A DNA stretch of 50,149 nucleotides, from positions 1 to 50,149 of the forward strand of contig JAPLTN010000037.1 of the NCBI GenBank assembly GCA_026398135.1. The letters are read 5' to 3'. Shown here piece after piece: positions 28,107 through 45,141 of this stretch. Source of the DNA: Verrucomicrobiota bacterium. Its GTDB lineage: Bacteria; Verrucomicrobiota; Verrucomicrobiia; Opitutales; Opitutaceae. Position numbers and translations under genes: made by a program. Positions within the stretch are counted from its first letter, which is position 1; each line of letters starts with the position of its first letter. Under the pieces are notes generated by a model, which did not search any database, was not told the DNA's origin, and saw only the letters and a list, made by a program, of their open reading frames with translations.

Positions 28107-28204
28107 GGGCGGAAAGGAAAAGAACGCGGGAGGAGTGGGGCCGCAAGCCCGGCTGAGGTTCGGGCGGATGCGCGATCTGAGGCTGGCAGCGGCCACGCGG
28201 AGCG

Positions 28205-28245
28205 CCCCGGCAAAGTGTAACCAATTTGGTTACACTTTGCCGGGG
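28205..28245. repeat. Perfect 20-bp palindrome overlapping the antiporter stop codon
   Basis: Arms 28205-28224 and 28226-28245 are perfectly complementary around a central T. Twenty-five central bases (AAGTGTAACC to ACACTT) are identical to 8951-8975, while the outer stem is different but still paired. On the minus strand it encodes the last residues (GKV) and TAA of the antiporter gene. Confidence 0.85.
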
Positions 28246-29597: not shown

Positions 29598-30497
29598 ATG
29601 ACGCCGGATGTTGAGCGGTTTCGGTTTGGGTTTGGGACGGCGGGCGAGGCGGGCCCGGGCCTGGTTGTGCCGGTTTTGGGCGGGAGCGAAGGGGAAACGC
29701 TTTTTGCGCAGGCACGCGGGGTGGGGCGGGCGGCGGGATTTGAGTTGTTCGCGGAGGGCGACTGGCTGCTGGGGGTAAGGGTCGAGGAAGCGGCGGCGGA
29801 TTTGGGGGAGCAGACCCGCGTGCTGTACAAGGATTTGCTCGGACTTTTGCGGGCGCGGGGTTTGGCGGCGGCGCGGATTTGGAATTTCGTGCCTGCGATC
29901 AACGCGGCCTCGGCGGAGGGTTTGGAAAACTACCGGGTGTTTTGTCGCGGGCGGGCGCAGGCCTACGAACACGAGCCGGTGGGCATCCCGCCAGCGGCGT
30001 CGGCGGTGGGCGGAGTGAGCGGGCGGCTGGCGGTGTATTTCGCGGCCTGTCCGGTCGAGCCCCGGCGGGTGGAAAACCCTGAGCAGGTGCCGGCCTATGC
30101 GTATCCGCTGGAGTATGGGCCGAGGGCGCCGAGTTTTTCTCGGGCGGCGCAGGTCGCGGTCAACGGAAGGCGGTTTACCTTCGTATCGGGCACGGCGGCG
30201 ATCAAGGGACACGCCACGGTGGCTGCGGAAAACTTGGCGCAGCAGATCGACTGCACGCTGGATAATCTAGGACTGATCTCGGTCGCGTGCGGGCTGGGCT
30301 CCGACCTCGGCGCGGGGGCGGAGGCGGAGCGGCATTTCAAAGTGTATGTGCGCCACGCCGCCGATTTTGAAACGGTGCGCACGGCGTTGGCGGAGCGGCT
30401 GTTCCTTAACGGCGATCAGGTGTGTTGGTTACGCAGCGATATTTGCCGGGCGGAGTTGATGTTCGAGATCGAGGCGACGGTGGTGGAGCAAGGTTAG
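29598..30497 (+). CDS. Chorismatase (FkbO/Hyg5/XanB2 family)
   Basis: The 299-residue protein has the family pattern ARIWNFVPAIN (92-102), GLENYRVFCRGRAQAYE, FTFVSGTAAIKGHATV (193-208) and a C-terminal LRSDICRAELMFEIEA with Cys283. Chorismatases convert chorismate either to a dihydroxycyclohexadiene (FkbO type) or to 3-hydroxybenzoate (Hyg5/XanB2 type). The adjacent operon makes the hydroxybenzoate type far more likely, since it would supply the aryl starter. I chose the ATG at 29598 (MTPDVERF). The gene converges on the operon, and its TAG shares two bases with the TAA of the opposing gene. Confidence 0.88.
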   Translation: MTPDVERFRFGFGTAGEAGPGLVVPVLGGSEGETLFAQARGVGRAAGFELFAEGDWLLGVRVEEAAADLGEQTRVLYKDLLGLLRARGLAAARIWNFVPAINAASAEGLENYRVFCRGRAQAYEHEPVGIPPAASAVGGVSGRLAVYFAACPVEPRRVENPEQVPAYAYPLEYGPRAPSFSRAAQVAVNGRRFTFVSGTAAIKGHATVAAENLAQQIDCTLDNLGLISVACGLGSDLGAGAEAERHFKVYVRHAADFETVRTALAERLFLNGDQVCWLRSDICRAELMFEIEATVVEQG

Positions 30498-31927
30498 CTA
30501 AGGGCGGCGGCGGGGGGGACGATGAAACGGAAGCCGCGTGCGGTGGCTTGTTCGACGACGTGGCGAAGGGCATCGACGCGGATCTCGGGCCGGAGAAACA
30601 GGCCTTCGTGGAAAAGAAGGATGGTGCCGGGGCGGAGGCGGCGCAGGACGCGTTGCGCGACGAGGGCGGGGTCGCGGGCGAAGCTGTCGCGGCTGCGGAT
30701 GGACCAGCCGATGCAAGTGAGTCCGCGCGCGGCGAGGGCGCGGGCAAGCAAGAGGTTTTTGATGCCCATGGGCGCACGGAAGCGGGTGGGTTGAAGGCCA
30801 GCGCCGAAGTTTACGTCGAGCTCACGGGCGAGCTGAGTGGGCGAGTGACGCCAGAGTCCATCGCTCGGGTGGGAACGGGTGTGGTGGCCGATTTCGTGGC
30901 CGCGGCGGGCGATTTCGCGCACCAGGTCCGGGTGCCGCTCGGCGCGTTCGCCAATAAGGAAAAACGTCGCGCGGGCGTGGTGTTTTTCAAGCAGATCGAG
31001 GATGCGCGGGGTGTCGTCGGGGTCGGGCCCGTCGTCGATGGTCAACCAGACCTCGGGGCGGGTGGTTTGAAAGCGCGTGACGACGCGCAGCAGGCCTTGG
31101 GCGTTGGGAGCGAAGAGCTGCCAGAGCACGAGCGCGCCGCCGGAAAGGAAGAGGAGCAGGCACCAAAGGAAGTGCACGCCGGACGACCAGAGCAGGAGCG
31201 AGCAGAGTTTGATCACGGCCACGGCGGCGTAGAGCGGGCGCGGGGTGGCGCAGGCGCGTTCCCGGCAGGGGGTGGCGATGAAATTGAGCGACGCGGCCAA
31301 AGCGCCGAGGGCGGCTCCCCAATAAACATCCAGCGCCACGTGCTGGCGGGTGCCGAGGGTGGCGTAGGTGATGAGAGCGGCCCAGGCGAAGTTGACCACG
31401 CGGGTGATGACGCCGCCGCCAAGGGCGGGGAGCAGGCGCTCGAACCAGAGGGCGGTGAAGATCGCGAAGGCGACGTGGAGGGAGGGGCAGGCGTTGCCGG
31501 ATTGGTCGATGGACTTGAGGAAAAGGAGCGAGCTGTGACGGTTCCAATCGATGGCGGAAACCGGGATGGTCGTCGGGAAGAACCAGAAAAGGGCGAAGCC
31601 CGCCAGACTCAGGCCGAGGCAGCCGAGCGCGAAGCTGAGCAGTTGCCGAAGATCGACGATGACGGAAGCGGCGAGCGAGATGTAGAGCCAGAGCGAGCAG
31701 TAGGGCAGCAGGGTCCAGGGTTGGAACGGGAGGAGGTGGTCGAGCCAGGTGAGCGGCATCGTGGTGACGGGAAACGCGGGTGCACGCAGCAGGGCGAAGT
31801 AGGCGACGAAAAACACGCTCATGCCCGCGCTCGTGCCGAGGCCCTTGGCCCAGGCGTGGGTCAGCATACGACGGAGCAAGGCGCGGGCGGTGAACGCGGA
31901 CTGCGAATCGGCGGGGGCGACGCTCAT
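30494..31927 (-). CDS. PAP2-type phosphatase fused to NodB-type polysaccharide deacetylase
   Basis: The 477-residue protein joins two catalytic modules. The N-terminal membrane part (about 30-265) has the PAP2 lipid-phosphatase signatures PSLHV (148-152) and RQHVALD (194-200). The C-terminal part (about 290-475) has the NodB motifs TIDDGPDP (296-303) and HTRSH (349-353). The pairing suggests removal of a lipid phosphate and an acetyl group from one lipid-linked sugar or a related product. It is the last gene of the 14-gene operon and overlaps the ligase gene by 4 bp. I know of no named protein with this arrangement in aryl polyene clusters. Confidence 0.85.
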   Translation of the reverse strand: MSVAPADSQSAFTARALLRRMLTHAWAKGLGTSAGMSVFFVAYFALLRAPAFPVTTMPLTWLDHLLPFQPWTLLPYCSLWLYISLAASVIVDLRQLLSFALGCLGLSLAGFALFWFFPTTIPVSAIDWNRHSSLLFLKSIDQSGNACPSLHVAFAIFTALWFERLLPALGGGVITRVVNFAWAALITYATLGTRQHVALDVYWGAALGALAASLNFIATPCRERACATPRPLYAAVAVIKLCSLLLWSSGVHFLWCLLLFLSGGALVLWQLFAPNAQGLLRVVTRFQTTRPEVWLTIDDGPDPDDTPRILDLLEKHHARATFFLIGERAERHPDLVREIARRGHEIGHHTRSHPSDGLWRHSPTQLARELDVNFGAGLQPTRFRAPMGIKNLLLARALAARGLTCIGWSIRSRDSFARDPALVAQRVLRRLRPGTILLFHEGLFLRPEIRVDALRHVVEQATARGFRFIVPPAAALS

Positions 31928-33246
31928 TTGAGCAACAGGGCGCGCAGGGCGGCGGGGTCGGGTTTGCCGCGCGGAGTCAGGGGGAAGGCGGCAACGGCGA
32001 CGATGCGCCGGGGTGTTTTCCAGGGGGCGAGTTGCGCGCGGAGCAAGACACGGAGGGGAAGCGGGGAGAGGGGAGTAGCGAGAACGGCGGCGAGGTGCTC
32101 GGGCTCGTCGGGGTGGGGCGCGACGAAAGCGTCCAGAATGCCGGGCAGGCGTCGAAGCTCGGCTTCGAGGTCACCCAGATCGAGTCGGCGGCCGCCGACT
32201 TTGAGCATGCGGCCGGTGCGGCCCAGGAGAACCAGACGGCCATCCGGCTGGAGACGCGCGCGGTCGGCGGGACGGTGGCCGTTCCGGCGGCTGACGGCGG
32301 CACTGGAAACATGGATACGATCGCGTGGACGTTGCGTGATGGTGACGCCTTGGAGGGCGCGGCCGACCCCGAGGCCTTGCAGGGTGTCGTCGCCAGTGGA
32401 GTCGTAGGCGATGCCGCCGGTCTCGGTCGAACCGTAGAAGCTGTGGGGTTTAAGGCCGAACTTCTGGTAAAACGCCTGGCCGGTGGCGGCGGGCAGGGCC
32501 GAGCCGGCGGAGATGACCGTGCGGATGGACCGGAAGGCATCGAGTGTAAGGTCCGCCTCGGCGAGGGCGCGCAGCAAGGCGGGCACGGCGGGGAAAACCG
32601 TCGGGCGGTGGCGGGTGGCGAGGGCGGCGAGCGCGTGGGGCAGCGGGGTATCGGCGCAGACGAGGGCGGTGCCTTGGGCGAGCAAAGGGACGACGAGGTT
32701 GCCCAGGCCGTAAGAGTGTCCGAAGGGGATGATGGCGAGGTTTATGTCGTCGGGCAGGATGCCCATGGTCACGCAAATGTGGCGACCATCGGCGAGCATC
32801 TGGGCGTGGGTGAAGGGGATGGCTTTCGGAGTGCCGGAGGTGCCGGAAGTCACCTTGATCAAGCCGGGGGCCGGGTGGCGGGAAGAGCGCAGCGGAAGCG
32901 AAGTGGGGCTGAGTTCGCCGTTGACCCAGGCGAAGGAGGCGCGGACGGAGCGGGCGAGTTCGTGCTGCCGTTGCGCGGTCTCGGTTGGGTCGAGCGGGAC
33001 GGGCGTGGCTTCGGCGCGGAGGAGGCCGAGGAAGGCGGCGAACCAAGCTGCGCCGTTGGGCAGGGCGAAGGCGACGCGCTGGCGGGATACTGAGGCGGGG
33101 AGCGCGGAGGCGAAGTCGGTGGCGAGGGCATCAAGCGCGGCGCGGGTGTAGGTGCGTTCGGGACCGGACTCGATGAGGGCGGGTGCCGACGGTGAGCGCG
33201 CCACGGTGGCGTTCCAAGCGGAGAGCAGAGAAGTCGGCTCAAGCAT
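31924..33246 (-). CDS. AMP-binding acyl/aryl ligase of the aryl polyene-like cluster
   Basis: The 440-residue adenylating enzyme has the P-loop-like VTSGTSGTPKAIPFTHAQ, FYGSTETGGI, and the C-terminal TPRGKPDPAAL with the catalytic Lys. It is somewhat short for the family. By context it probably activates the hydroxybenzoate starter from the chorismatase for loading on one of the two ACPs. It overlaps the exporter gene by 8 bp and the last operon gene by 4 bp. Substrate specificity cannot be read reliably from the sequence. Confidence 0.88.
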   Translation of the reverse strand: MLEPTSLLSAWNATVARSPSAPALIESGPERTYTRAALDALATDFASALPASVSRQRVAFALPNGAAWFAAFLGLLRAEATPVPLDPTETAQRQHELARSVRASFAWVNGELSPTSLPLRSSRHPAPGLIKVTSGTSGTPKAIPFTHAQMLADGRHICVTMGILPDDINLAIIPFGHSYGLGNLVVPLLAQGTALVCADTPLPHALAALATRHRPTVFPAVPALLRALAEADLTLDAFRSIRTVISAGSALPAATGQAFYQKFGLKPHSFYGSTETGGIAYDSTGDDTLQGLGVGRALQGVTITQRPRDRIHVSSAAVSRRNGHRPADRARLQPDGRLVLLGRTGRMLKVGGRRLDLGDLEAELRRLPGILDAFVAPHPDEPEHLAAVLATPLSPLPLRVLLRAQLAPWKTPRRIVAVAAFPLTPRGKPDPAALRALLLK

Positions 33247-35536
33247 GGTGGCGGAGCGAGAAGAGGTCGGTCTCCACGAAAACGAGGGCGAGGACGACGA
33301 TGAGCGCGACCGAGCTGCCGAGTGAAGCGACGGCGGGAATCGCGCTCAGCGAAAGGGTGGCGAAGGATGCGGCGGTGGTGAGGGCGGATAAACGGATCGA
33401 GGCGAGGGCACCGGGTGAGCCATCGTCGGCGTGGGCAAAGTGCGCGTAGTCGTCGGCCAGACAGACTCCGAGCAGCGCGCCGAGCAGGTGGAAAAGGCCG
33501 AAGGGCTCACCGCGCAAGGCGATGACGGCGAAGGAGAGCGCGGTCGCCAGCAAGGGCAGCGCGGCGGTGCGCAGACCGGTGCGCAGGCCGAGCAGGGCGC
33601 AGGAGATGAGCACGAGCGCGGCGATGCCAGCAAAGCTGAGGCGGCTGGTGGCTACGCGGTAACGAGCAAAGAGGTGATTCAGGCTCTCTATGCCGGAGAG
33701 CGAAAGCGTGTGTTCGTCGTGGGCGGGCGTGGCGGGGCTTTTCGCACGGGAGATAAACCAGACGCCGTCGGAGTTGGCGTGGGCGAGCAAGCCGAGCGGT
33801 CCGGGGAGGGCAGCGAGGGTCTCGCGCGCCAGGTTTTCGTAGTCGGGCGCGGGACGGGTTAAGTGAGCGATTAGGTCGGTTAGGAAAGGTTGAAAAGCGT
33901 CGGGTTCGTAACCGGCGCGGAGGGCGGCGGCGGCGAGGTCCGGACCTAGGCGGGTGAGAGTGGCGCGACCGGCGGGAGAGAGGGCGGCGGCGTAGTCGGC
34001 GGGCAGGGGGAAAAGGGACGCCAGACTGGAGACGGGCGTGGTGTCGGCCAGGGTTTGCCAGTGGGTGCGGGCCTCGGCGAACGAGGCGCCGCGAGTGATC
34101 AGGCTGACGCCGGTGTTGTTTTCGCCGAACGCGGCGCGGATGGCGGCGTCTTCGGCGCGGAGAGCAGGCGAGGGGTATTCCAGTGCGCGCAGGTCGTCGT
34201 TCCAGTGGATACGGCTGAGGCCAAACGCGGCGAAACCGGTAAGCGCCAAGAGCAAGGGGAGGCGGAAACGTCGGGGGCAACCCGCGTGGGCCGGCCAGGC
34301 GCGCGGAGCGAGGTCGAGGTTCGGGAAGGCGGAAAAATACAACAGGGTGGCACCCAGGCCGGTGACGATGCCGGCGGCGACGTAAACGCCGAGTTGGCGG
34401 ACCAAGGGCAGCTCGGATACGACGAGGGTAAGGAAACCTGCCACGGTGGTGGCGGCTCCGCCGAGCAAGGGCAGCAGAAGACGGCGCACGCGGGAGGGGT
34501 AGTTTTCGCCTTCGCGGCGGGCGAGCACGAGGTGGAAAGCGTAGTCCACCGCGACGCCGGAAAGCAGCGAGCCGAGCACAAAGACGAGCACGTGTACGCG
34601 CGGAAAAATCGCGGTGGTGGCGGCGACCGCACCGAGGGTGGATAAGGCGACCAGCGGGACAAGATGCAGCAGACCGAAAATGCGGCGGACGGAAAGGACG
34701 GATACACCGAAAACGGCGGCCAGCGCGACCAGGTTGAGCCAGGAGATTTCGTCGCGGGTTGCGGCTTTGGCGGCGGCGGCAAAACGGTGCACGCCGGTGA
34801 AGCGCACGGTGAGCGCGGGCAGATGGGCGCGGGCGGCGTTTTCGGCGGCGGACAGGGCGGCGAAAACCGGTTGTTGGCCGGCTTCGGAAAGGGGGCCGGC
34901 GCGCGTCTCGGCCCAGACCAGGGCACGACCGGCGAGAGGGGTGGATTGGGTGTCGAGCGAGGCGGTGCGTTCGGCGAGCGCGGGTAAAAGCAGGAGCGGG
35001 TCGGAGGGGATTAACTCGGCCAGGGCGTTGCCGTCGGGTGAGGCGAGGCGGGTGTCGAGGGCGGCGATGGTGCGCCGGGCGAGCCAAGGGCTGAAGGCGG
35101 GGTCGTCGGGCGGGGTGGCGGGGAAAGCGGCGGCGTAGGCGCGGCGTTGTTCGGCGAGCCAGCCGGGCAGGAGCAGATCGATGCGGCGGGCGTGGAGCAG
35201 GCGGCCGAGCGCGTGTTGCCAGGACGGGTCGGCGAGCGGAGTGGCGGCGGCGAAGGCGGGAGAGGCGCGCAAGGCCTCGGCGTGGGCGGAGGTGGCGAGG
35301 GCGAGGGTGGCGGGAGGCGTGCCGGCGGGAGCGTCGAGGACAACGAGGATCACCCGTGACTGGCGTTCGCGGACGAGAGACAAGGCGAGACGGGCCTCGG
35401 GGTCGCGCTCGTCGGCGGGCAGGAGTTCGGTGACGTCGGTGGTGAAGCGTTCGTCCGGGTCCAGACTGAGCAGCCAGGCACCGCAAAGCGCGGCGAAGGC
35501 GAGGAGAAGAAAAAGCGGGCGGCGGGAGCGAAACAC
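33239..35536 (-). CDS. MMPL/RND-superfamily exporter
   Basis: The 765-residue protein has an N-terminal helix, a large periplasmic domain, a helix bundle with SGVAVDYAFHLVLARREG, a second periplasmic region and a final bundle with GVCLADDYAHFAHADDGS. Related exporters in aryl polyene clusters move the pigment lipid from the inner membrane. It starts 6 bp after the LolA-like gene. Together they suggest hand-off to a periplasmic carrier. Confidence 0.88.
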   Translation of the reverse strand: MFRSRRPLFLLLAFAALCGAWLLSLDPDERFTTDVTELLPADERDPEARLALSLVRERQSRVILVVLDAPAGTPPATLALATSAHAEALRASPAFAAATPLADPSWQHALGRLLHARRIDLLLPGWLAEQRRAYAAAFPATPPDDPAFSPWLARRTIAALDTRLASPDGNALAELIPSDPLLLLPALAERTASLDTQSTPLAGRALVWAETRAGPLSEAGQQPVFAALSAAENAARAHLPALTVRFTGVHRFAAAAKAATRDEISWLNLVALAAVFGVSVLSVRRIFGLLHLVPLVALSTLGAVAATTAIFPRVHVLVFVLGSLLSGVAVDYAFHLVLARREGENYPSRVRRLLLPLLGGAATTVAGFLTLVVSELPLVRQLGVYVAAGIVTGLGATLLYFSAFPNLDLAPRAWPAHAGCPRRFRLPLLLALTGFAAFGLSRIHWNDDLRALEYPSPALRAEDAAIRAAFGENNTGVSLITRGASFAEARTHWQTLADTTPVSSLASLFPLPADYAAALSPAGRATLTRLGPDLAAAALRAGYEPDAFQPFLTDLIAHLTRPAPDYENLARETLAALPGPLGLLAHANSDGVWFISRAKSPATPAHDEHTLSLSGIESLNHLFARYRVATSRLSFAGIAALVLISCALLGLRTGLRTAALPLLATALSFAVIALRGEPFGLFHLLGALLGVCLADDYAHFAHADDGSPGALASIRLSALTTAASFATLSLSAIPAVASLGSSVALIVVLALVFVETDLFSLRHHA

Positions 35537-35542
35537 GGCGGA

Positions 35543-36163
35543 TCAGCGGAAGTAGCGGACGAGTTCCTCGGGGGAGAAACGGGGGTCGAGTTGCGGCGGC
35601 TCCAGGGCGATCTCGGTGCGGAGCCGGGCTGTCTTGGCAAGAATGATGCGGGTAAGGCGCTCGGCCCGGCCCAGCAGGGTGAGCTCGCGGTAGGTGGAGA
35701 CGGCCTCGGGGCGGCGGGTGAAGACGAGGGCCCAGGAGTTGTCGGGATTTTCCGTGGCGGTGAGGGCGTAGGATTTCTCCAAGGTGGCTAGGTCGAAGAC
35801 AAAGAGAGCGTGGAGGAGGCGCAGGTCGGCGGTGGCGTCGGCGGGCGCGGTTTGTTCGCGTCCGTCGGGGTGGCGGAGGAGGAGGCCGTTTTCGTCCAAA
35901 ATAACGACGGGGGCGCGGGGTTGGGCGTAGGTGAGGCTCAGGCCCCGGGCGCGGTCGATGCGCACGGTGCCGGTGACGATGACGGCCGTCTTTTTCAGCG
36001 GAGTGAAGCGGCTTTCAGTAAAGTCGCCCATGAGAGTGAGCGGCCGGGCCAGCGATTCCAGGCGGGTGCGGGCGGCGGCTGGGAGTTCGCTCGTGAAAGG
36101 TTCGATGGCGAAGAGCGGTGAGCTGAGGCCGAGGAGAAAGACGTAGAGCAGGCGGAGGTTCAT
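35543..36163 (-). CDS. LolA-like outer-membrane lipid carrier protein
   Basis: The 206-residue protein has a signal peptide (about 1-19, ending LFAIEP). The following pattern fits LolA-like proteins: GDFTESRFTPLKKTAVIVTG, then RGLSLTYAQPRAPVVILDEN. Such carriers appear in aryl polyene clusters and are thought to ferry the lipid-linked product to the outer membrane. The ATG at 36163 overlaps the preceding glycosyltransferase stop by 4 bp. Confidence 0.8.
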   Translation of the reverse strand: MNLRLLYVFLLGLSSPLFAIEPFTSELPAAARTRLESLARPLTLMGDFTESRFTPLKKTAVIVTGTVRIDRARGLSLTYAQPRAPVVILDENGLLLRHPDGREQTAPADATADLRLLHALFVFDLATLEKSYALTATENPDNSWALVFTRRPEAVSTYRELTLLGRAERLTRIILAKTARLRTEIALEPPQLDPRFSPEELVRYFR

Positions 36164-36942
36164 CGGCTGGACTTTCGGGCGTGAAGGCGGCGACGGGTGG
36201 CAAGGATGGCCGGGAACGTGACGAGCAGGCGCAGCAGCAGGCGGGTGTGGAGCCAGATCATGCGGAGGTTGTCCCGGACGTAGTGGAAGTGGGATACGCC
36301 GCCGTCGGCCTTGGCGATGTAGCGGCAGGGGGCGGGGAGGTTGAGGGGCGGGACGCCACGCCAGAAAAGGCGGACGGCGATCTCGGGGTCGAAGTCGTAG
36401 CGGCGCGCGGAGCGGAGGGCGGAGAGGGCGGCGTGGGTAGGCGCGACAGGGTAGACGCGAAAGCCGAAGAGCGGATCGCCGATGTCGCGGCCGAGGCATT
36501 CGAGGTGAACGAGACCGACGCTGAGTTTGCGGCCGTAGAGGCGTTCCAGCGGCACCTCGGGTCCGAAAACGGGACGCCCCAGAATGAGGCATTCGGGCTG
36601 GGCGGCGGAGGCGGCCATGAAGGGCGCGATGTGGTCGATGGGGTGTTGGCCATCGGCGTCGAGCACGAGGGCGTGGGTGAACTTTTCCGCGAGCGCGAGG
36701 CCGAGGCCGTGGAGTACGGCGGCGCCTTTTCCGGAGTTGTTGGGAAGCTTGAAAACACGCAGGCGCTGGTGGCCGAGTTCGGTGGCGAGGGCGGAAACGG
36801 GGGTGTCGGAGCCGTCGTCGGAGCCATCGACCACGACCCAGACGGGCGACCAGACGGCGAGGGCTTCGCGCACGGTGCGCAGGAGGCGGGGGCCGGTGTT
36901 GAAGCTCGGGATGAGGACGAGGTGGGTGGCGGAGGCGGTCAT
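36160..36942 (-). CDS. Family 2 glycosyltransferase
   Basis: The 260-residue protein has the GT-A pattern: HLVLIPSFNTG at the start, VVDGSDDGSD (38-46) and the metal-binding VLDADGQHP with Asp95 and Asp97. A C-terminal hydrophobic stretch (HTRLLLRLLVTFPAILA) may anchor it to the membrane. In this cluster it probably adds a sugar to the polyene lipid or its head group. The acceptor is unknown. Overlaps of 4 bp on both sides mark tight coupling. Confidence 0.86.
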   Translation of the reverse strand: MTASATHLVLIPSFNTGPRLLRTVREALAVWSPVWVVVDGSDDGSDTPVSALATELGHQRLRVFKLPNNSGKGAAVLHGLGLALAEKFTHALVLDADGQHPIDHIAPFMAASAAQPECLILGRPVFGPEVPLERLYGRKLSVGLVHLECLGRDIGDPLFGFRVYPVAPTHAALSALRSARRYDFDPEIAVRLFWRGVPPLNLPAPCRYIAKADGGVSHFHYVRDNLRMIWLHTRLLLRLLVTFPAILATRRRLHARKSSR

Positions 36943-37664: not shown

Positions 37665-38578
37665 GGTCGGGCGGGGGCTTCGAGGTTGAGCGGCCGATAG
37701 TTGAACCACAGATACGGGTCGGCCCGCAGGAGGGATTCCACGAGGTCCAGGAAAACCTGGAAGTGGGCGCGGGCGGATTCCAGGTTGCGGGCGCGAGAGA
37801 CGGAGGGATCGGGCAGCCAGCGCGGGGAGCTGTGAATGACGGATTCGCCGGGTGCGCCGGGCACGCCGACGCAGAGGTAGACGGGGCGGCCAAAAATGAT
37901 GGCGAGGTGATAGATGGTGAAAGGAAAGAGACGGCGCGCGCCGAGAAACTGGAAAGGCTCGGCGCGGGAGCTGTGTTCGAGGCGGTCGCACTTCAGGGCG
38001 AGGGATCCGCCGGCGGTGATGGCGTCCTTGAGCGCGAAGAGCAGGTTTTCGCCCTCGTTTACCCACACAAAGGAAACCCAGCGGCCGAAGGTGGCGCCGA
38101 GTTTTTCGACATCGTGGGAATTGCCGACGCGCAGGCGGACCATGGAGACGCGGCGCTGCTCCTGTCCGCCGAAGAGAAAGCCGACGAGATCGGAGTGCCC
38201 GACATGGAACGTGCCGAGCAGGGCGTCTTCGGGGGTGTCGAGAAAACGGCGAAAGTCTGAGCAGCCCGGCGCGAGCACGCCGCGATGGGGGCGGCCGTCG
38301 GCGACGCGGAGCTTGAGCATGAGCATTTCCTCGAAGGCGAAGAAATGGCGGAAAACCTCCCGGGTGGCGGGTTCGCGGCCGAGGATCACGCGCAGGTAGG
38401 CGCGGGAGTGGCGGCGTTGTTCGCGCATGTTCAGCAGGGCCACGGCGGTGCCAAAGGCGCGGGCGGGACGGAAGAGGGGCTCGGGCACCCAGCGGTCGGC
38501 GAGGCGGAGAAAACGGTAGCCCCAGCTTGGGCCCGGATTGCGGGCGGGCGTAGCGGCGGCTGGGGCGGGCGCGTTCAT
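37661..38578 (-). CDS. LpxL/HtrB-like acyltransferase
   Basis: The 305-residue protein shows the HX4D-type motif (FHVGHSD, His125 to Asp130) and later GGSLALKCDRLEH, FPFTIYHLAIIFGRPVYL and a C-terminal LWFNYRPL. This matches the lysophospholipid/lipid A acyltransferase superfamily. Such an enzyme occurs in aryl polyene and flexirubin-like clusters. The ATG at 38578 overlaps the preceding gene by 4 bp. Its donor is probably the polyene-ACP; this is inferred from context. Confidence 0.8.
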   Translation of the reverse strand: MNAPAPAAATPARNPGPSWGYRFLRLADRWVPEPLFRPARAFGTAVALLNMREQRRHSRAYLRVILGREPATREVFRHFFAFEEMLMLKLRVADGRPHRGVLAPGCSDFRRFLDTPEDALLGTFHVGHSDLVGFLFGGQEQRRVSMVRLRVGNSHDVEKLGATFGRWVSFVWVNEGENLLFALKDAITAGGSLALKCDRLEHSSRAEPFQFLGARRLFPFTIYHLAIIFGRPVYLCVGVPGAPGESVIHSSPRWLPDPSVSRARNLESARAHFQVFLDLVESLLRADPYLWFNYRPLNLEAPARP

Positions 38579-39234
38579 GACCAATCGATACGGAGTCGCC
38601 GGGTTTCGGATACGACGGAATTGAAGGGGCGGCGCGCTTGCAGAAGATCAAAAAACGCCGCCTGGGGCAGCGGGTGCGAGGTCCCGGCTGGAGGGGCGGT
38701 TTCGAGGGCGATACGGCCGAGCGCGTCGGTGGACGATGTGGAAAGGGCGAGGGCGTAGGCGAAGGTGCGGTCGCTGGCGCGGCCTTTTTCCAAGAGCCAG
38801 CCGCCGCGTTCCTCGCCGCCGCAGAGCACGACGCGGGGGGCGTCGCAAAGCAACGCGACGAGTAGGGCGCGGGCGGGCAGATCGAGGTCGCCGGTGACGG
38901 GAAAAAACTGGCGCACGGCGTGTTGCCGCAGGATGAGGTTTTGCTGGACGGCGCTGGGGTGGATCGAGGTTTGGAACAGGGTGGGGCTCGGGTTGGGGAA
39001 GCTGTCGAGGTAGCCCTCCAGGGTGCGCGTCTCGGCGTAGGTCGAGGCGTACACCACGGTGTCGGATTCGCAGAGTTGAAGCGGCGCGAGGGTGGTGCCG
39101 AGGCAGAGCCCGAGCTGGGTCATACGGCGGGTGCTGTTCTTGGGGAAGTGGTCCTTGAGGCGTTCGCGGGTGGCGAGGGCGTCCTCGGTGGCGGCGTCTT
39201 CCAAGTGGAGAGCGGTGATCCAGCGTTCAAGCAT
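38575..39234 (-). CDS. Short ketosynthase-like protein (Ketoacyl-synt_2 type)
   Basis: The 219-residue protein has HFPKNSTRRMTQLGLCLGTT, YASTYAETRTLEGYLDSFPN, SIHPSAVQQN and ALLCDAPRVVLCGGEE. These resemble the N-terminal part of a ketoacyl synthase. No catalytic Cys-His-His set is evident and the C-terminal half is absent. Similar short proteins sit in aryl polyene clusters beside full ketosynthases and may be structural partners. The ATG at 39234 overlaps the preceding gene by 8 bp. Family assignment is from pattern only. Confidence 0.65.
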   Translation of the reverse strand: MLERWITALHLEDAATEDALATRERLKDHFPKNSTRRMTQLGLCLGTTLAPLQLCESDTVVYASTYAETRTLEGYLDSFPNPSPTLFQTSIHPSAVQQNLILRQHAVRQFFPVTGDLDLPARALLVALLCDAPRVVLCGGEERGGWLLEKGRASDRTFAYALALSTSSTDALGRIALETAPPAGTSHPLPQAAFFDLLQARRPFNSVVSETRRLRIDWS

Positions 39235-40333
39235 GACGGAGTATAAGGGCGGCGTGGGCGCCGCCGAAGGCGTTGCTGGTGCAGACGACGGCGTCGAAGG
39301 AAGCGAGGTCGAAGGGCGCGAGCGCGAGGTCGGGCGAAAAGCCGGGGGCGGAGGAGCCGATGGTGCCGGGGGCGCGACCGGCGTGGAGGGCGGCACGGGC
39401 GAGCGCGAGTTCGACCAAGCCGCAGCTGCCCAGCGTGTGGCCGAGTGCGCCTTTCCAGGAGACGAGGGGGGCGCCGGGGAAGGCGGCGGAGAGCGCGGCG
39501 GCTTCAAGGCGGCCGGCTTCGAGGGTGCCGGTGCCGTGGCCTTTTAACCAGACCCGGCGACCGGCGAGCAGGCGGGGCAGCCCGGCGAGGCAGTGGGCGA
39601 AACCGGTGCCGTCGGGCCGGTTGGCGGTGAAGTGGTGCATCTCGTTGTAGAGGCTTTGGCCTTCGATCACGAGGTCGCCGCGGTCGCGAGTGAGCACGGC
39701 GAAGGCCGCGCCGTCGCCGAGGCCGATGGAGCCGTTGGGGCGGTCTTGGTAGGGGGCGGGGAAGTCGGCGTTGAGGATTTTCAGGGCGTGAAACCCCCCG
39801 GCGACGAAGGGGCTGATGAAATCGAAAGAGAAGACGAGGACCTCATCGGCGAGGTTGGCGGCGACCAGGCGCGAGGCGTGCAGCAGGCCGAGGTGGGCGG
39901 AGACGCAGGCGTGGGAAAACACCGTGACATCGGGGCCCCAGCCGAGGGCGGCGGCGACCTGGTTTACGCAGTGGATGGGGGTGGCGTAGTCGAGGTGGTT
40001 TTCTCCGCCCCGGCGGCGGTAGGCGTGGAGGTGGCTGACCCCAAAATTGCTCCCGGTGACGACCACGGGGCGGCGGGGCGTGCCCCAAGCGGTTTCGGGG
40101 ATGCGGGCGGCGAGGGTGCGCAGGAGGGGGAGCCAGGAGGGCGGCAGGGTTTCGTCGTAGGCGTGGCCGGGGCAGAGCGCGATGGGGACGAGATCACCGC
40201 CTTCGACGCCGTGGACGGGCACGGGCGCCAGTGCGGAGCGACCGGCGAGCAGGGCGGCGAGGGTGGCGTGTTCGTCGCCGAAGGCCGTGAGGGTGCCGCA
40301 GGCGGACAAGTGAATCGGCGGCAAAGCGGACAT
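39227..40333 (-). CDS. Beta-ketoacyl synthase (second of the cluster, short form)
   Basis: The 368-residue protein is a divergent ketosynthase. It has Cys143 in FSHACVSAHLG, His266 in KGHGTGTLEAG, and Lys294 and His299 in WKGALGHTLGSCG. The Cys-His-His set is kept, so it is probably active rather than a pure chain-length factor, although about 50 residues shorter than its partner. The ATG at 40333 lies 13 bp after the second ACP gene. It probably pairs with the enzyme at 40649-41914 for polyene extension. Confidence 0.85.
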   Translation of the reverse strand: MSALPPIHLSACGTLTAFGDEHATLAALLAGRSALAPVPVHGVEGGDLVPIALCPGHAYDETLPPSWLPLLRTLAARIPETAWGTPRRPVVVTGSNFGVSHLHAYRRRGGENHLDYATPIHCVNQVAAALGWGPDVTVFSHACVSAHLGLLHASRLVAANLADEVLVFSFDFISPFVAGGFHALKILNADFPAPYQDRPNGSIGLGDGAAFAVLTRDRGDLVIEGQSLYNEMHHFTANRPDGTGFAHCLAGLPRLLAGRRVWLKGHGTGTLEAGRLEAAALSAAFPGAPLVSWKGALGHTLGSCGLVELALARAALHAGRAPGTIGSSAPGFSPDLALAPFDLASFDAVVCTSNAFGGAHAALILRHA

Positions 40334-40346
40334 GCGGCGGGTCGGC

Positions 40347-40622
40347 TCAGGCGGGCAGGCGGGCGGGGTCGGCGTGGGCGCGCAGGTAGGCGCTGAGCGC
40401 GGTGACGCTGGCGAGCGCGGTGCGGGATTCTTCGCTGCTGGCGATTTTGATGCCGAATTCTTTTTCCAGCCGCACCACGAGTTCGAGGGCGTCGATCGAG
40501 TCGAGGCTGAGGCCGCCGCCGACGAGGGGCTCGTCGTCGGGAATGGAGGCGGGGGTGATGTCCTCAAGGCGGAGGGTTTCGACGATGAGGACTTTGAGTT
40601 GGTGGTTGAGAGGATCGGGCAT
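40347..40622 (-). CDS. Acyl carrier protein (second of the cluster)
   Basis: The 91-residue protein has the phosphopantetheine site in GGGLSLDSIDALELV with Ser42, and the acidic helical ACP layout. It carries growing or starter acyl groups on a pantetheine arm. The ATG at 40622 (MPDPLNHQLK) is preferred; the same frame is open further upstream inside the previous gene, but without a family match. It is one of two ACPs in the operon. Confidence 0.92.
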   Translation of the reverse strand: MPDPLNHQLKVLIVETLRLEDITPASIPDDEPLVGGGLSLDSIDALELVVRLEKEFGIKIASSEESRTALASVTALSAYLRAHADPARLPA

Positions 40623-40648
40623 GGCGGGAGCGGGAGGCGAGCAGGGTG

Positions 40649-41914
40649 TTAGACGGCGGCGCGGAGAACAAGGGAGACGTTGGCCCCGCCGAAGCCGGAG
40701 CTGTTTTTCAAAGTGAAGCGGGGGCGGCGGGAGAGGCTGGCGCGGGGGAGGTCGAGGCCTTCGCAGATGGGATCGGGGTTGAGCAAGGTGGGATTGCCCG
40801 GGGTGAACCCGTGGTGCGAGGAGAGCGCGCAAAACGCGGTTTCGAGCGCGCCGGAGAGGGACAGGCCGTGGCCGGTCTGGCCCTTGGTGCTGCTGATGAC
40901 GGGGCGGTGGCCAAGGGCGGAGAAGGTAGCGCGCAGGGCGAGGGCCTCGGCGCGGTCGCCGACAGGCGTGGAGGTGGCGTGGGCGTGGACGTAGTCGATC
41001 TCGCCCGGGGAGAGGGCGGCATCGCGCAAGGCCCGGCGCATGGCTTCGCGCAGGCCTGCGCCTTCGGGGTGGGAGGTGGCGACGGAGTGGCCGTCGGCGG
41101 CCTGGCCCCAGCCTATGAGCTCGGCGTAGATGCGGGCGGAGCGGCGGGCGGCGAGCGCGGGGCTTTCGAGTACGAGCACGGCCGCGCCGCCGGTGGGCAC
41201 GAAGCCGTCGCGACCGGTATCGAAGGGACGCGAGGCGGTGGCGGGGTCTGCGCTAGTGGAAAGGGCGCGCATGGGCACGAAGGGCAGGATGGTGTCGGCG
41301 TTGAGCTCCTCGGCACCGACGACGATCATGCGTTCCTGGCGGCCGAGGCGGATTTCATCGAGGGCGTAGCCGAGGGCGTGGGTCGATGACGTGCAGGCGG
41401 AGACGAAGCCGGTGACTGCGCCGGTGATGCGGTAGTGGGCGGCGAGGTTGAAATTCAAGGTGCCGGCGATGGAGGAAACGACCGCGAAGGGGTTGCCACG
41501 CTCGAAACGGGAGGCGCGGGCCTGGGTGAGGTTATGATGACTGAGGAAGGCGGAGCCGGCGGAGGCGCAGAAGAGACCGGTGGTGCCGTCCTGGAGATCG
41601 GTGGCGGTGAGGCCGGCGTCGGCGAGGGCCTGTTCAAGGGCGTGAAAGGCATACACGCCGTGGGGGGCGAGGCCGCGCAGCGTCTCGCGCGGAAGGTTGC
41701 AGGCGGTTGGCCAGGTCCAGTCGCGGTAGTTGGGTGAATCGACTGCGAAGCCGTGGACGGGGGCGGCGACTTTTAGCGGAATGGCGGGGTTGTCGTAGAG
41801 GGAGTGGGTGACGATGCCGGAGCGGCCGGTGCGCAGGGCGTCGGCCACGCTGGCGGAGTCGTTGCCCAGGCAACTGATGAAGCCGAGGCCGGTGATGCAG
41901 GCGGAGCGAGGCAC
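40649..41914 (-). CDS. Beta-ketoacyl synthase, FabF/FabB type (first of the cluster)
   Basis: The 421-residue protein is a full-length condensing enzyme. It has Cys174 in SACTSSTHALG, His312 in HAHATSTPVGD, Lys344 and His349 in KGQTGHGLSLSG, and a GFGGANVSLVL ending. It should extend the ACP-bound chain by two carbons per cycle using malonyl-ACP. It lies 7 bp after the first ACP gene and 26 bp before the second. Its place in the cluster points to aryl polyene rather than membrane fatty-acid synthesis. Confidence 0.93.
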   Translation of the reverse strand: MPRSACITGLGFISCLGNDSASVADALRTGRSGIVTHSLYDNPAIPLKVAAPVHGFAVDSPNYRDWTWPTACNLPRETLRGLAPHGVYAFHALEQALADAGLTATDLQDGTTGLFCASAGSAFLSHHNLTQARASRFERGNPFAVVSSIAGTLNFNLAAHYRITGAVTGFVSACTSSTHALGYALDEIRLGRQERMIVVGAEELNADTILPFVPMRALSTSADPATASRPFDTGRDGFVPTGGAAVLVLESPALAARRSARIYAELIGWGQAADGHSVATSHPEGAGLREAMRRALRDAALSPGEIDYVHAHATSTPVGDRAEALALRATFSALGHRPVISSTKGQTGHGLSLSGALETAFCALSSHHGFTPGNPTLLNPDPICEGLDLPRASLSRRPRFTLKNSSGFGGANVSLVLRAAV

Positions 41915-41921
41915 GGGCGGA

Positions 41922-42269
41922 TCAGGCGGAGGGCCGGGCGGGGCCGATTTTGCTTAAAACGAAGGCGCGGAGGTCGGCGACGGTGTGGATGCGGCGCAGG
42001 TCGTCGTTGGAAATGGATACCTGGTAAAGGTCTTCGATGAAAAAGATGATCTCGGCGAGGACGAGTGAGTCGAAGCCGAGGTCTTCGACGAGGCGGGAGG
42101 TTTCGGGGAGGTTTTCGGAGTATTGCGCGCGGATGTTCGGGGGAAGGTGAAAGGCAACGATGGCGATCACCACGGTGGCGAGGGCGTGGGGGTCGCGGTC
42201 CGAGAGCCAGCGGGCGTGGGCTTCGCGGATGGCGGAGGGAAAAGAGTTTAAAGGGGAGACGGTGCACAT
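41922..42269 (-). CDS. Acyl carrier protein (first of the cluster)
   Basis: The 115-residue protein has an N-terminal extension and the carrier core VEDLGFDSLVLAEIIFFIED, with the phosphopantetheine Ser68. The core is hydrophobic for an ACP, which may reflect an aryl or polyene cargo. It overlaps the upstream halogenase-like gene by 22 bp. Two different ACPs suggest one for starter loading and one for extension; this is an inference. Confidence 0.88.
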   Translation of the reverse strand: MCTVSPLNSFPSAIREAHARWLSDRDPHALATVVIAIVAFHLPPNIRAQYSENLPETSRLVEDLGFDSLVLAEIIFFIEDLYQVSISNDDLRRIHTVADLRAFVLSKIGPARPSA

Positions 42270-43864
42270 ACGGCGGAAGTGGAGGTGGTGGCCTCGGGAG
42301 GCGCGGGGCTAGTGTGCGGGGTGGCGAACCAGCAACGCCAGCCTTCGCAGAACTCCAGTCGCAGGTAGGCGCCGACGGCTACGAGCAGGCGGAGCGGGAG
42401 CGTCCAGGTGAGTTCGTAGGAGCGAAAACCGCAGTAGCGGCGGTCATTGCTTTGGCCCCAGGTGCCGCGGGCGAGGCGGGTGCGGGCGATGGCGGCGAGG
42501 CGGCGATTGTAGAAGGCCATGAAGCGGGCGAACGGGGCGCTGGTACGGGATGCGAACGAAGGGGTTTCGAGGGCGGCGGCACCGTTGCGGAAAGGTTGGG
42601 AAACGACGCCGAGGTAGTAGAGGCCGAGGTCGAGCCGGAAGGCCAGGGTCATGAGCTGGTGGTCGCCCAGGTAGTAATATTTGTCGCGGTAAACGGCATC
42701 GAACCAGCGGGCGTAGGAGGCGGCGAACCGGGTATTGTGAAGCTCGATACGCGGGGCCTTGGGTTTGCCGCGCACGGAGCCGTCGATGAGGGCGGCGGCG
42801 GCGCTGGCGGTGTAGGCGATCCAGTCCATGCCGGGTGAATAGAAGGGGTCGATGAAGGCGGCGGCGTCGCCCACGAGCACGAAGCCGTCGCCGGCATAGC
42901 GGGTGGAGTGGTAGGCGAGGTTGCGGCGGAAGTGGGTGTCGTTGGGCCGCCAGACGGCGCCGGCCATGAGCTCGCGGGCGGCGGGGTGGGCGAAGAGCAT
43001 TTCGCGAAGACGCGGGCCGAGGCGTTCGCCTTCGGGCAGGTCGAGCAGGCGCTGGTCGTAGACGACGCCGACGCTGGTGTCGCCGCCCTTGAGCGGGATC
43101 ATCCAGGCCCACCAGCCGAGGCCGACGAGGTGGTTGGTGGCGGTGTGGCGAAGGGCTTTGGTGCGGCGGGACCAGGCGGGGAATTTTACCGCGAGATCGC
43201 GGGAGTCCCAGTTTTTGACCCCGCTCCAGCGCGTCCAGACGGCGGCGGTGGGGTGGGCGGGATTGGGGCGCAGCCAGTTCTGGCGGCGGGCGAGCAGGGC
43301 GGAGAAACCAGAGGCGTCGATGACCCAGCGGCCGAGCAGTGGCGAGGTGGCAGCGTTGGCGGACGAGGATGTGGCGGTGGAGGCGGAGGGTGTTTCCCAG
43401 GTGACGGTTTGCAGGCCGCCGGGATTGAGGGAGACGTCGAGCACGCGGGCGGGGCGGAGCAGGGAGGCTCCGGCGGCGACGGCACGGGCGAGGACTTCCT
43501 CGTCGAGCACGGCGCGGTCCACCTGGTAGCCGGGCAGGCGGACGTTGTAGCCGGGGCCGGTTTCGCTGCATTCGCCGAGGGTGGTGGCGCGCGGGTTGTG
43601 GAACCAGAAGCGGAGGCCCTGTTTGACGTAGTGGTGTTCGTTGAGGTGGGCGGTGAGGTCGAGCACGCGGCCGAGAAAGTAGGCGCTGACCTCGACGGTG
43701 GATTCGCCCACGCGGCGTTTGAAGGTGGAGTGACGCTCAACGATAAGCACGCGCAGGCGGGGGTTGCGCCGCAGAAGGAGCAGGGCGGTCGCGGCGCCGG
43801 AGAGCGCGCCGCCGATCACGATGGCGTCCCAGGGTTGCTCGCTCGGTGGCGGGTGCGGGTTCAT
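42248..43864 (-). CDS. FAD-dependent halogenase-like oxidoreductase (larger)
   Basis: The 538-residue protein has an FAD-binding start (AIVIGGALSGAATALLLLRR) and GESTVEVSAYFLGRVLDL. The Lys81 position (HHYVKQGLRFWF) and WAWMIP (252-257) match the WxWxIP signature of flavin-dependent halogenases, and GDAAAFIDPFYSPGMDW follows. Enzymes of this kind use reduced FAD and halide to halogenate aromatic rings, but related reductases and hydroxylases share the fold. By context the substrate would be the aryl head of the polyene. The ATG at 43864 overlaps the preceding stop by 4 bp. Confidence 0.78.
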   Translation of the reverse strand: MNPHPPPSEQPWDAIVIGGALSGAATALLLLRRNPRLRVLIVERHSTFKRRVGESTVEVSAYFLGRVLDLTAHLNEHHYVKQGLRFWFHNPRATTLGECSETGPGYNVRLPGYQVDRAVLDEEVLARAVAAGASLLRPARVLDVSLNPGGLQTVTWETPSASTATSSSANAATSPLLGRWVIDASGFSALLARRQNWLRPNPAHPTAAVWTRWSGVKNWDSRDLAVKFPAWSRRTKALRHTATNHLVGLGWWAWMIPLKGGDTSVGVVYDQRLLDLPEGERLGPRLREMLFAHPAARELMAGAVWRPNDTHFRRNLAYHSTRYAGDGFVLVGDAAAFIDPFYSPGMDWIAYTASAAAALIDGSVRGKPKAPRIELHNTRFAASYARWFDAVYRDKYYYLGDHQLMTLAFRLDLGLYYLGVVSQPFRNGAAALETPSFASRTSAPFARFMAFYNRRLAAIARTRLARGTWGQSNDRRYCGFRSYELTWTLPLRLLVAVGAYLRLEFCEGWRCWFATPHTSPAPPEATTSTSAVCAPSPL

Positions 43865-45141
43865 GGGGAGGGCGCGGGGTCGAGGCTGAGGCGGGGAACG
43901 AGGGGCAAGGGGCGCTGGAGGCGGCAGACGAGGAGGAAGAGCCGGAAGCGCCACCAGAGGGCGAAGTTGAGGTCGGCGTGGCCGGCGACGATGGAGGTGA
44001 TGCCTGGCGCGAGACCCCACGGGGGGCGGGGGCACATGAAAACGGAGAAGCTGTCGTCGTCGTAAAAGGCTTCGATCAGGCGGTGGAAAACCGAGGCGGG
44101 TTTCCGGCATTCGCGGAGATGGCGGGCGCACTCGGCGGCGCGGAACGGACGGTTTTGGCGGGCGGCCTGGATGACGAGGGCGGCGGCGTGTTTGGCGGAG
44201 CGAAGGGCGAGGTAAACGCCGGAGGAGAAAATGGGGTCGAGGAAGCCGCCCGCGTCGCCCGCGAGGATATAGCGACCGGCGGCGACGCGGCGGCGGTAGT
44301 AGCTGTAGTCGGCGGTGACGTGGTAATCCATGGACGGTTCGGCGCCGTCGAGCAGGCGGCGCAAGCGAGGGGTGCGGGCGACGACGGCGGCGAAGTGGGC
44401 GGCGGGGCTTTGCCGGCCGGCCTTGAAGGCGGCCTGGGTGGTGACGAGGCCGACGGAGGTGTGATCGGCGTCGATGGGGATGAGCCAGAACCAGCCATCG
44501 GGCAGGCGGACGATGAGGGTATCGCCGCCGGCGGGACCGGGGTCGCGGGCGACGTTGGTAAAGTGGTTGTAGATCGCGAGGCGGCGGGCGAAGGCGGCGG
44601 GGGCCAGGTCGGCCTTGAGCGCGTGGGGAAAAAAGTGGTCGCGGCCGGTGGCGTCGATCACGTAGCGGGCGCGCACGGAGACGGTGTTGCCCTGGGTTTC
44701 GAGGTCGGCGGAGTGGGTGTCGGCCTCGGTGCGAAGGGCGCGCACGGTGGTGGCCTGGCGCACCTCGGCGCCGAGCTCGCGGGCGTGATCGAGCAGGAGG
44801 GTGTCGAAGCGGGCGCGATCCACCTGGCAGGCGCTTTCGAGGCCGGGAATGAGACCGGTGGAGAAATCGACCTTCTTTTCGGCGTCGCCCGCGCCGAGGT
44901 AGAAGCGGGCGCCGAATTTTTCGATGAAGCCGGCCCGGGTGACTTTTTCCCAGACACCGAGTTCGCGCAGGAGTGCGTTGCCCGCCGGGAGGAGCGACTC
45001 GCCGATACGAAAGCGCGGGAAAGTGGATTTTTCCACGACGAGGGTGCTGAGTCCGGCTTGCCGGGTGCGGATGGCCGCGGAGGCCCCCGCAGGTCCGCCG
45101 CCGACAATGAGCACGTCGTAGGGTGTTTCGTTGTTTAACAC
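43861..45141 (-). CDS. FAD-dependent halogenase-like oxidoreductase (first operon gene)
   Basis: The 426-residue protein has the dinucleotide-binding start VLIVGGGPAGASAAIR, the GESLLPAGNALLRELGVW helix, Lys75 in FIEKFGARFY, and WFWLIP (217-222), again the WxWxIP signature. GDAGGFLDPIFSSGVYLAL is the second FAD motif. It is the likely first gene of the operon, starting at a GTG (45139-45141). Xanthomonadin-type clusters contain halogenase-like genes, and both proteins here fit that pattern. Other flavin oxidoreductase activities remain possible. Confidence 0.78.
   Translation of the reverse strand: MLNNETPYDVLIVGGGPAGASAAIRTRQAGLSTLVVEKSTFPRFRIGESLLPAGNALLRELGVWEKVTRAGFIEKFGARFYLGAGDAEKKVDFSTGLIPGLESACQVDRARFDTLLLDHARELGAEVRQATTVRALRTEADTHSADLETQGNTVSVRARYVIDATGRDHFFPHALKADLAPAAFARRLAIYNHFTNVARDPGPAGGDTLIVRLPDGWFWLIPIDADHTSVGLVTTQAAFKAGRQSPAAHFAAVVARTPRLRRLLDGAEPSMDYHVTADYSYYRRRVAAGRYILAGDAGGFLDPIFSSGVYLALRSAKHAAALVIQAARQNRPFRAAECARHLRECRKPASVFHRLIEAFYDDDSFSVFMCPRPPWGLAPGITSIVAGHADLNFALWWRFRLFLLVCRLQRPLPLVPRLSLDPAPSP

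Follow-up and report, generated by a model that had tools for sequence, protein, structure and literature searches.

An aryl polyene-type gene cluster without in-cluster reduction genes in the family Opitutaceae

The closest described systems to the gene cluster reported here are the xanthomonadin clusters of Xanthomonas and Lysobacter enzymogenes, the arcuflavin cluster of Azoarcus sp. BH72, and the aryl polyene (APE) cluster of Escherichia coli CFT073 (apeA-R). Our cluster lies on a 50,149-bp contig (JAPLTN010000037.1, C4) within the 3.39-Mb genome of an Opitutaceae bacterium (117 contigs, completeness 99.86%). The whole contig was analysed and is called the window below. According to the available parts of the two reports, the Xanthomonas cluster contains a ketoreductase and a dehydratase (PMC3949708), and the Lysobacter cluster contains one ketoreductase and two dehydratases, deletion of the ketoreductase giving white mutants (PMC3691225). 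The Azoarcus genes occupy two genomic places and include the reductase arcH, the dehydratases arcI and arcS, the halogenase arcA, the chorismatase arcB, and the polysaccharide deacetylase arcN (PMC3949708). Deletion of most core genes abolishes the pigment in E. coli, and the results for apeI, apeP, and apeQ are not individually given in the available part of that paper (PMC8253772).

APE regions flagged by antiSMASH are already known in Opitutales. Congregicoccus parvus ASA1 (genome announcement PMC10927696) forms whitish-yellow colonies, and one of its six antiSMASH regions, which are described as having little similarity to known clusters, is labelled "arylpolyene" (PMC12193912). In all, two APE clusters are reported from Opitutales bins of turtle ants (PMC8277422), and Oceaniferula flavus, of another verrucomicrobial genus, holds one (PMC9865893). 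These regions share the phylum and product label with the window, and the first two share the order; gene content, reduction genes, and product are not discussed in the available parts of these papers. The reduced architecture described below was not found described in the open literature.

The window contains a minus-strand operon of 14 co-directional genes running from position 45141 to 30494 (Table 1). The chorismatase gene g15 is convergent with it, and the 3′-ends overlap by 4 bp. A sequence-only reading had proposed this 14-gene operon facing a chorismatase. The proposal was borne out by codon-position GC, which backs most of the 14 genes as coding, by Pfam, which matched the chorismatase and all of the 14 genes except g07 and g08, and by the gene order, which recurs in related genomes. 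The same reading placed the chorismatase start at 29598; an ATG was confirmed there, and the enclosing open reading frame (ORF) begins at a TTG at 29580. The tight, overlapping layout it described is real, but its count of eight overlapping junctions, five of 4 bp, depends on the start codons: with our start choices, 9/13 junctions overlap (six by 4 bp, two by 8 bp, and one by 22 bp). Its gene list covered 12 genes and left the first two unnamed, both of which are flavin-dependent halogenase-like.

The operon was compared by BLAST with the annotated CFT073 cluster, the gene names being taken from a table in the available part of PMC8253772. The best matches, all at E ≤ 2.3e-14, paired g04 with ApeR, g05 with ApeE (3e-19), g06 with ApeO, g09 with ApeD, g10 with the first half of ApeJ, g12 with ApeM, and g13 with ApeH (1.3e-14). 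Counterparts of ApeC, D, E, H, J, L, M, O, and R are present and g03 is weakly ApeF-like, whereas ApeI, ApeP, ApeQ, ApeK, ApeB, ApeG, ApeN, and ApeA are unmatched in the operon. The E. coli starter comes from UbiC; the window instead has a linked chorismatase, a split ApeJ, and added halogenase-like genes. As far as the available parts of PMC3949708 and PMC3691225 describe them, the xanthomonadin and arcuflavin clusters share with the window a XanB2/Hyg5-superfamily chorismatase, an AMP ligase, an acyl carrier protein (ACP), a ketosynthase (KS) with a short partner resembling a chain-length factor (CLF), acyltransferases, LolA, and exporters. The Azoarcus cluster also shares the glycosyltransferase and the polysaccharide deacetylase (PMC3949708). 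A halogenase is present in the Xanthomonas and Azoarcus clusters but not in that of Lysobacter, whereas the window has two halogenase-like genes (PMC3949708, PMC3691225). The window differs further in an extra FabF/FabB-like KS and in a PAP2 domain fused to the deacetylase.

The main difference concerns reduction. The xanthomonadin and arcuflavin clusters hold a ketoreductase and one or two dehydratases, and the window operon holds none (PMC3949708, PMC3691225, available parts). Pfam, NCBIfam, and BLAST against the E. coli Ape proteins gave no recognisable ketoreductase, dehydratase, thioesterase, or methyltransferase within the operon. The earlier match to the APE and xanthomonadin gene sets holds for the synthase core, ACP, ligase, attachment, export, and chorismatase, and breaks down at the ketoreductase and both dehydratases, which are missing. 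The cluster is APE-type by its KS-CLF core and is not canonical when judged by in-cluster ketoreductase and dehydratase genes. It is most like the xanthomonadin and arcuflavin clusters, in a reduced form common to the family; the product, halogenation, and sugar proposed below are predictions.

To place the operon among its relatives, an alignment of KSb (g06) was scanned over a collection of 84,980 species. The scan found 106 relatives; the top 80 were retained and divided by KSb identity and tree place into 68 Opitutaceae-type loci and 12 deeper loci (L102, L103, L111-L120). The closest KSb was in a Verrucomicrobia metagenome-assembled genome (MAG) contig (L041, 97% identical), followed by Verrucomicrobiota and Opitutaceae MAGs. 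A further 20 regions were taken around high-ranking matches of KSa (g04) in 200 family genomes. Dehydratase profiles built from nine ApeI-like and six ApeP-like sequences were run with filters off on the ORFs of the 80 and 20 loci. ApeI-like matches were found in nine loci and ApeP-like matches in seven, all of them deeper. The matches were confined to L103 and L112-L119, apart from a chance-level ApeP match in L117 (E 0.062), which was ignored. None of the 68 Opitutaceae-type loci (35 of which show both slots described below) had a dehydratase by these profiles. The KSb-CLF core was present in 16 of the 20 KSa-anchored regions and a dehydratase match in none of the 20; in one of the 16 (L022), a FabG-like gene adjoins the cluster. 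ApeQ was the best match in 0/80 related loci and other short-chain dehydrogenase/reductase (SDR) matches occurred in 4/80, many loci being cut by contig ends.

The dehydratase-bearing deeper clusters (Cerasicoccus, Pelagicoccus, and Opitutales MAGs; L103, L112-L119) have a similar core order, a KSb of 49–53% identity, and in most cases a ligase and a chorismatase. Unlike the window, they have an ApeI-like dehydratase, an ApeP-like one, or both, located in two fixed slots wherever these are visible; no ketoreductase match was found within the stretches fetched. The ApeI-like ORF or fused domain lies between the PlsC-type acyltransferase and the glycosyltransferase (GT), and the ApeP-like ORF lies between the MMPL exporter and the ligase. 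Both slots were visible in 43/80 loci: seven of eight deeper loci had both dehydratases, and none of the 35 Opitutaceae-type loci had either. Measured between matched stretches, the PlsC-GT slot was 318–405 bp in the nine ApeI-bearing deeper loci and <200 bp in 54/56 Opitutaceae-type loci; the MMPL-ligase slot was 417–439 bp in seven deeper loci and <200 bp in 32/37 Opitutaceae-type loci. The wide-slot exceptions (L043 and L059 for PlsC-GT; L069, L072, L073, L076, and L079 for MMPL-ligase) gave no dehydratase match, and L111 was too short for judging the slots.

Two observations concern the slots themselves. The ApeI-like dehydratase shares one ORF with a PlsC-type acyltransferase in L116 (11352-12404) and L113 (5583-6719). 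In L072, L073, L076, and L079, a stretch of about 1.5 kb occupies the former dehydratase slot between MMPL and ligase; that of L073 (the ORF at 13725-15269 in L030, a contig of equal length) reads by its CxxxCxxC motif as a putative radical SAM protein.

On the KSb tree of 80 rows, the dehydratase label needed three changes, compared with a mean of 9.5 after shuffling, and 0/500 shuffles were as low. The tree was a quick one with long branches; two or more switches of dehydratase state follow from its starred branches, and it does not resolve gain from loss. Loss is the most likely explanation of the absence, given that both kinds of enzyme are found in E. coli and in the published clusters. 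A dehydratase hidden inside another gene was rejected on the filters-off profile search over the 80 and 20 loci. A contig end or assembly gap was also rejected: the operon is internal to the 50-kb contig, and six single-contig genomes showed no extra matches.

The APE assignment is well supported at the synthase core. The top PDB match of KSb was the Acinetobacter baumannii ApeO (7f28_B, E 2.5e-17), and its catalytic Cys and two His are invariant across homologues; PF00109 failed to detect it. According to the available part of PMC8358021, 7F28 is ApeO-ApeC, ApeR is termed FabB-like, and ApeO-ApeC alone yields a fully elongated polyene. The short g07 had no Pfam or NCBIfam match. Its family profile (17 sequences) gave two matches at E ≤ 1 among 177,635 distinct PDB sequences, both to ApeC: 6qsp_B (2.2e-4), from an entry titled as ApeO with ApeC, and 7f28_A (0.0074). 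The three best fold matches of the g07 model (mean predicted local distance difference test score, pLDDT, 83) were the ApeC chains 6qsp_B, 7f28_C, and 7f28_A, in this order (E 4e-10 to 2e-7); the fourth-best match had E 1.7e-5. Profile and model give good support to reading the cluster's short "ketosynthase" as a predicted ApeC-type CLF, and the core as an ApeO-type KS with a short CLF. For the ligase g13, none of the best 25 of 88 NCBIfam models attained its cut-off. The ketosynthases and ligase assigned to the APE pathway by the sequence-only reading give a mixed result: KSb and the short KS group with APE proteins, whereas KSa is nearer FabF/FabB and the ligase stays below the cut-offs of those 25 NCBIfam models. 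In L052 (8726-11771) and L050, KSb and CLF adjoin a SufS-like cysteine desulfurase; a LolA-like match lies nearby and most other cluster genes are unmatched, indicating that the synthase core can be unlinked from the operon.

Genes for lipid attachment and export are retained as counterparts of ApeD, ApeJ, ApeL, and ApeM, the ApeL match of g11 being weak and found by phmmer only (2.5e-5). The g08 product had no Pfam or NCBIfam match; by hhalign (probability 95, E 2.7e-8), its family profile aligned to ApeJ residues 258-548. The fold of its model (mean pLDDT 87) matched the LpxM and PatA acyltransferases. Because g10 matches the first half of ApeJ and g08 the second, the fused E. coli protein is represented here by two genes. 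The PAP2-NodB gene g14 had matches in 19/80 related loci. It is a single ORF in the window, L043, and L048, and almost one in L044; PAP2 and NodB are two adjacent ORFs in L047 and separate genes in L078, L088, L095, and L104, and elsewhere NodB occurs alone. The fusion hints at dephosphorylation and deacetylation of one lipid-sugar intermediate. This fusion and the gene order had been singled out as unlike the well-studied types; both are real, yet the order recurs family-wide and a deacetylase is already in the Azoarcus arcuflavin cluster. No text on APE lipid structure was found in the open literature. An APE lipid with galactosamine-phosphate-glycerol is reportedly described in Grammbitter et al. 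2020, and the amino-sugar and lipid part of our proposal draws on that structure.

The chorismatase suggests the starter unit. The best PDB sequence for g15 was 5ag3 (1.7e-42), labelled "putative pteridine-dependent dioxygenase" and taken by us to be Hyg5, ahead of FkbO (4bps, 1.6e-35). The alignment showed a Gly in SGTA and a Cys in DICR; both positions are Ala in FkbO. These residues (Gly204 and Cys289, numbered from the TTG start) were invariant in 46/46 sequences, window included, and would correspond to Gly-231 and Cys-318. They are typical of 3-hydroxybenzoate-forming (Hyg5-type) chorismatases, and this activity is predicted for g15. The available part of PMC3949708 cautions that an alignment by itself does not allow accurate prediction of the chorismatase reaction.

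The best solved relatives of g01 were CmlS, ChlB4, a "Halogenase" entry, 3nix, and PltA, and g02 matched halogenase entries weakly (best 3e1t, 4.3e-18, then radH). WxWxIP and FxxPxxSxG, which we take to be halogenase motifs, were invariant in 21/21 sequences collected with g01 and 23/23 collected with g02. A putative catalytic Lys, assigned by motif reading, was present in 19/21 of the g01-collected sequences. The two exceptions probably represent g02 copies collected as second-best matches, because L053 and L113 each show a best match for g02 alone. Not every related locus has the pair: g01 was a best match in 19/80 loci and g02 in 23/80, many loci being cut by contig ends. Judged by family, both flavoproteins are halogenase-like, and related flavoproteins also catalyse other reactions. 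In L019 (13237-13998) and L025 (14158-14886), a methyltransferase-like gene, UbiE-like by eye, adjoins ACP1 (g03) and is a possible candidate for a ring O-methyltransferase.

We consider it quite probable that the operon encodes a xanthomonadin-like APE glycolipid pathway with an outer-membrane-bound product, and that its reduction steps are borrowed from FabG and FabZ of fatty acid synthesis (FAS). Chorismate would be converted to 3-hydroxybenzoate by g15, the residues for this being observed, and loaded by g13 on ACP2 (g05), by analogy with ApeH and ApeE. KSb and the CLF would elongate the starter with malonyl units, KSa and ACP1 assisting as their families suggest, while housekeeping FabG would reduce and FabZ dehydrate each keto group. 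One or both flavoproteins may halogenate the ring. The lipid would be built by g09, with the PAP2 part of g14 taking off a phosphate; g10 would attach an amino sugar, from which the NodB part would strip an acetyl group. The polyene would be transferred from ACP to the lipid by g08, and the product exported by g11 and g12 as with ApeL and ApeM.

Housekeeping candidates for the missing steps were found elsewhere in the window genome. The ApeI/ApeP profiles were run on 16 chosen from the 65 family genomes with a strong KSb (six on one contig), and each of the 16 gave 2–3 matches. In the window genome, contigs C73 and C52 matched both profiles and C102 matched ApeI; these are the same three FabA/FabZ-family places as found with PF07977. 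The C73 frame is a putative LpxC-FabZ gene, judged by frame size or motif. In the other 15 genomes, most matches lay in frames of similar sizes. The genome's FabG scored 178 bits to ApeQ and, of the proteins in the five stretches read from the window genome, was the most ApeQ-like. On C52 (L036:751-4460), the FabZ-like gene is followed by genes that by translation are enoyl-reductase-like, FabH/OleA-like, and alpha/beta hydrolase-like, a set resembling an FAS or olefin type.

Several points weigh against this FAS-borrowing pathway. Borrowing is not automatic, because deletion of the Lysobacter ketoreductase bleached the cells. A displaced dedicated dehydratase may lie among the profile matches of the other 15 of the 16 genomes. 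The deep lineage L120 also lacks both dehydratases (slots 52 and 40 bp), and deep L102 has no recognisable dehydratase, with no PlsC match and a narrow MMPL-ligase slot; the absence is therefore not peculiar to one clade, which counts against a single loss. KSa scores many FabF/FabB entries of the PDB above the ApeR entry 7f27. It is, in our view, a weak marker either way, because ApeR is itself FabB-like and ApeO-ApeC alone elongates fully. L043, L061, and L070 lack KSa and have 13–72 bp between ACP1 and ACP2, so the ApeR-like KS may be dispensable. No chemistry for Opitutaceae-type APE clusters was found in the open literature; yellow colonies can have other causes, and the APE-positive isolate EW11 bears the proposed name "Albicoccus".

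Three other explanations were weighed against the FAS-borrowing pathway. The missing steps could come from an unlinked unit on C102 (L037:10382-13459) in place of general FAS enzymes, since an ACP, a FabA-like dehydratase, a KS, and an SDR stand there in one run and its KS (445 bits to g04) and ACP (59 bits to g03) are paralogues of the operon genes. We regard this as rather unlikely. KSb was found at E ≤ 1e-15 in 69/200 family genomes, four of them weak, and the C102 dehydratase matched in 194/200 at E ≤ 1e-10, weaker FabZ-level matches included. At E ≤ 1e-20 it was present in 60/65 strong-KSb genomes and 117/135 others, and it was rejected as a dedicated APE partner because its presence is not tied to the cluster. 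Its match was weak in five APE-positive genomes (G118, G191, G109, G149, which is 98% complete, and G103).

The product may also no longer be a polyene, KSb-CLF yielding an aryl polyketide with no or only partial reduction, which is afterwards attached to lipid. The dehydratase-free state of all 35 fully visible Opitutaceae-type clusters and the scarcity of ApeQ-like and SDR matches in the 80 loci speak for this, but it seems unlikely, given that the deeper clusters that keep the dehydratases have the same synthase core, acyltransferases, and export genes, that the KSb catalytic residues are invariant, and that a Pfam scan showed no cyclase or aromatase domain in the operon. We speculate, with little expectation of being right, that the Opitutaceae synthase turned into a reduction-free type II system, in which KSb-CLF without ketoreductase or dehydratase gives a halogenated, unreduced aryl polyketide lipid. 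We know of no such product class from any member of the APE synthase family. Decay into a non-functional remnant would agree with the genes missing relative to deeper relatives and with the presence of KSb in just 3/10 sampled genomes of the window's genus group, the window's own included. It is very improbable, however: in the window the reading frame of every one of the 15 genes is intact, dozens of loci retain the catalytic residues, and the reduced set recurs in many genera.

On one flank of the operon, an AAA-type ATPase-like ORF was read by eye at 45829-46995. The other flank (26682-29471) holds a CobW-family protein and a Na/H exchanger (28230-29471); the latter was considered as a link to Azoarcus arcG and set aside, no search for it next to the cluster in related genomes having been made.

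Table 1. Positions and assignments of the cluster genes and of the two closed dehydratase slots in the window.
Feature	Position	Strand	Assignment	Basis
g01	43861..45141	-	Flavin-dependent halogenase-like, 426 aa	Pfam/NCBIfam, PDB relatives, motifs
g02	42248..43864	-	Second, more divergent flavin-dependent halogenase-like, 538 aa	Pfam, PDB search, motifs
g03	41922..42269	-	Acyl carrier protein 1 (ACP1)	Pfam; weak ApeF match, E 0.010
g04	40649..41914	-	Ketosynthase KSa, FabF/FabB-like	Best E. coli APE match ApeR
g05	40347..40622	-	Acyl carrier protein 2 (ACP2), ApeE-like	47% identity to E. coli ApeE over 77 columns
g06	39227..40333	-	Ketosynthase KSb, ApeO-like	Catalytic Cys and two His retained
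g07	38575..39234	-	Short chain-length factor, ApeC-like, 219 aa	Profile and fold
g08	37661..38578	-	LpxM/PatA-fold acyltransferase; counterpart of E. coli ApeJ C-terminal half	Profile and model
g09	36939..37664	-	PlsC-type acyltransferase, ApeD-like	Pfam, BLAST
g10	36160..36942	-	Family 2 glycosyltransferase; counterpart of ApeJ N-terminal half	Pfam, BLAST
g11	35543..36163	-	LolA-like carrier	Pfam; weak ApeL match
g12	33239..35536	-	MMPL exporter, ApeM-like	Pfam, BLAST
g13	31924..33246	-	AMP-forming ligase, ApeH-like	Pfam, BLAST
g14	30494..31927	-	PAP2 phosphatase fused to NodB-type polysaccharide deacetylase	Pfam/NCBIfam
g15	29598..30497	+	FkbO/Hyg5-family chorismatase	Pfam, PDB search, residues
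Closed slot g09/g10	36939..36942	-	4-bp overlap; ApeI-like dehydratase site in deeper Opitutia clusters	
Closed slot g12/g13	33239..33246	-	8-bp overlap; ApeP-like dehydratase site in deeper Opitutia clusters	

A family that keeps the synthase without the reduction genes suggests either that the APE synthase shares reduction enzymes with FAS or that its product has changed. Housekeeping enzymes did not replace the ketoreductase in Lysobacter, whereas Opitutaceae seem to rely on them or to make something else. Both alternatives are directly testable in cultured relatives, and the natural pairs of clusters with and without dehydratases offer a means of asking what dedicated dehydratases are for. 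If the FAS-borrowing pathway is true, the product would be a yellow, membrane-bound pigment of the antioxidant type, its double bonds probably made by the ordinary enzymes of fatty acid synthesis.

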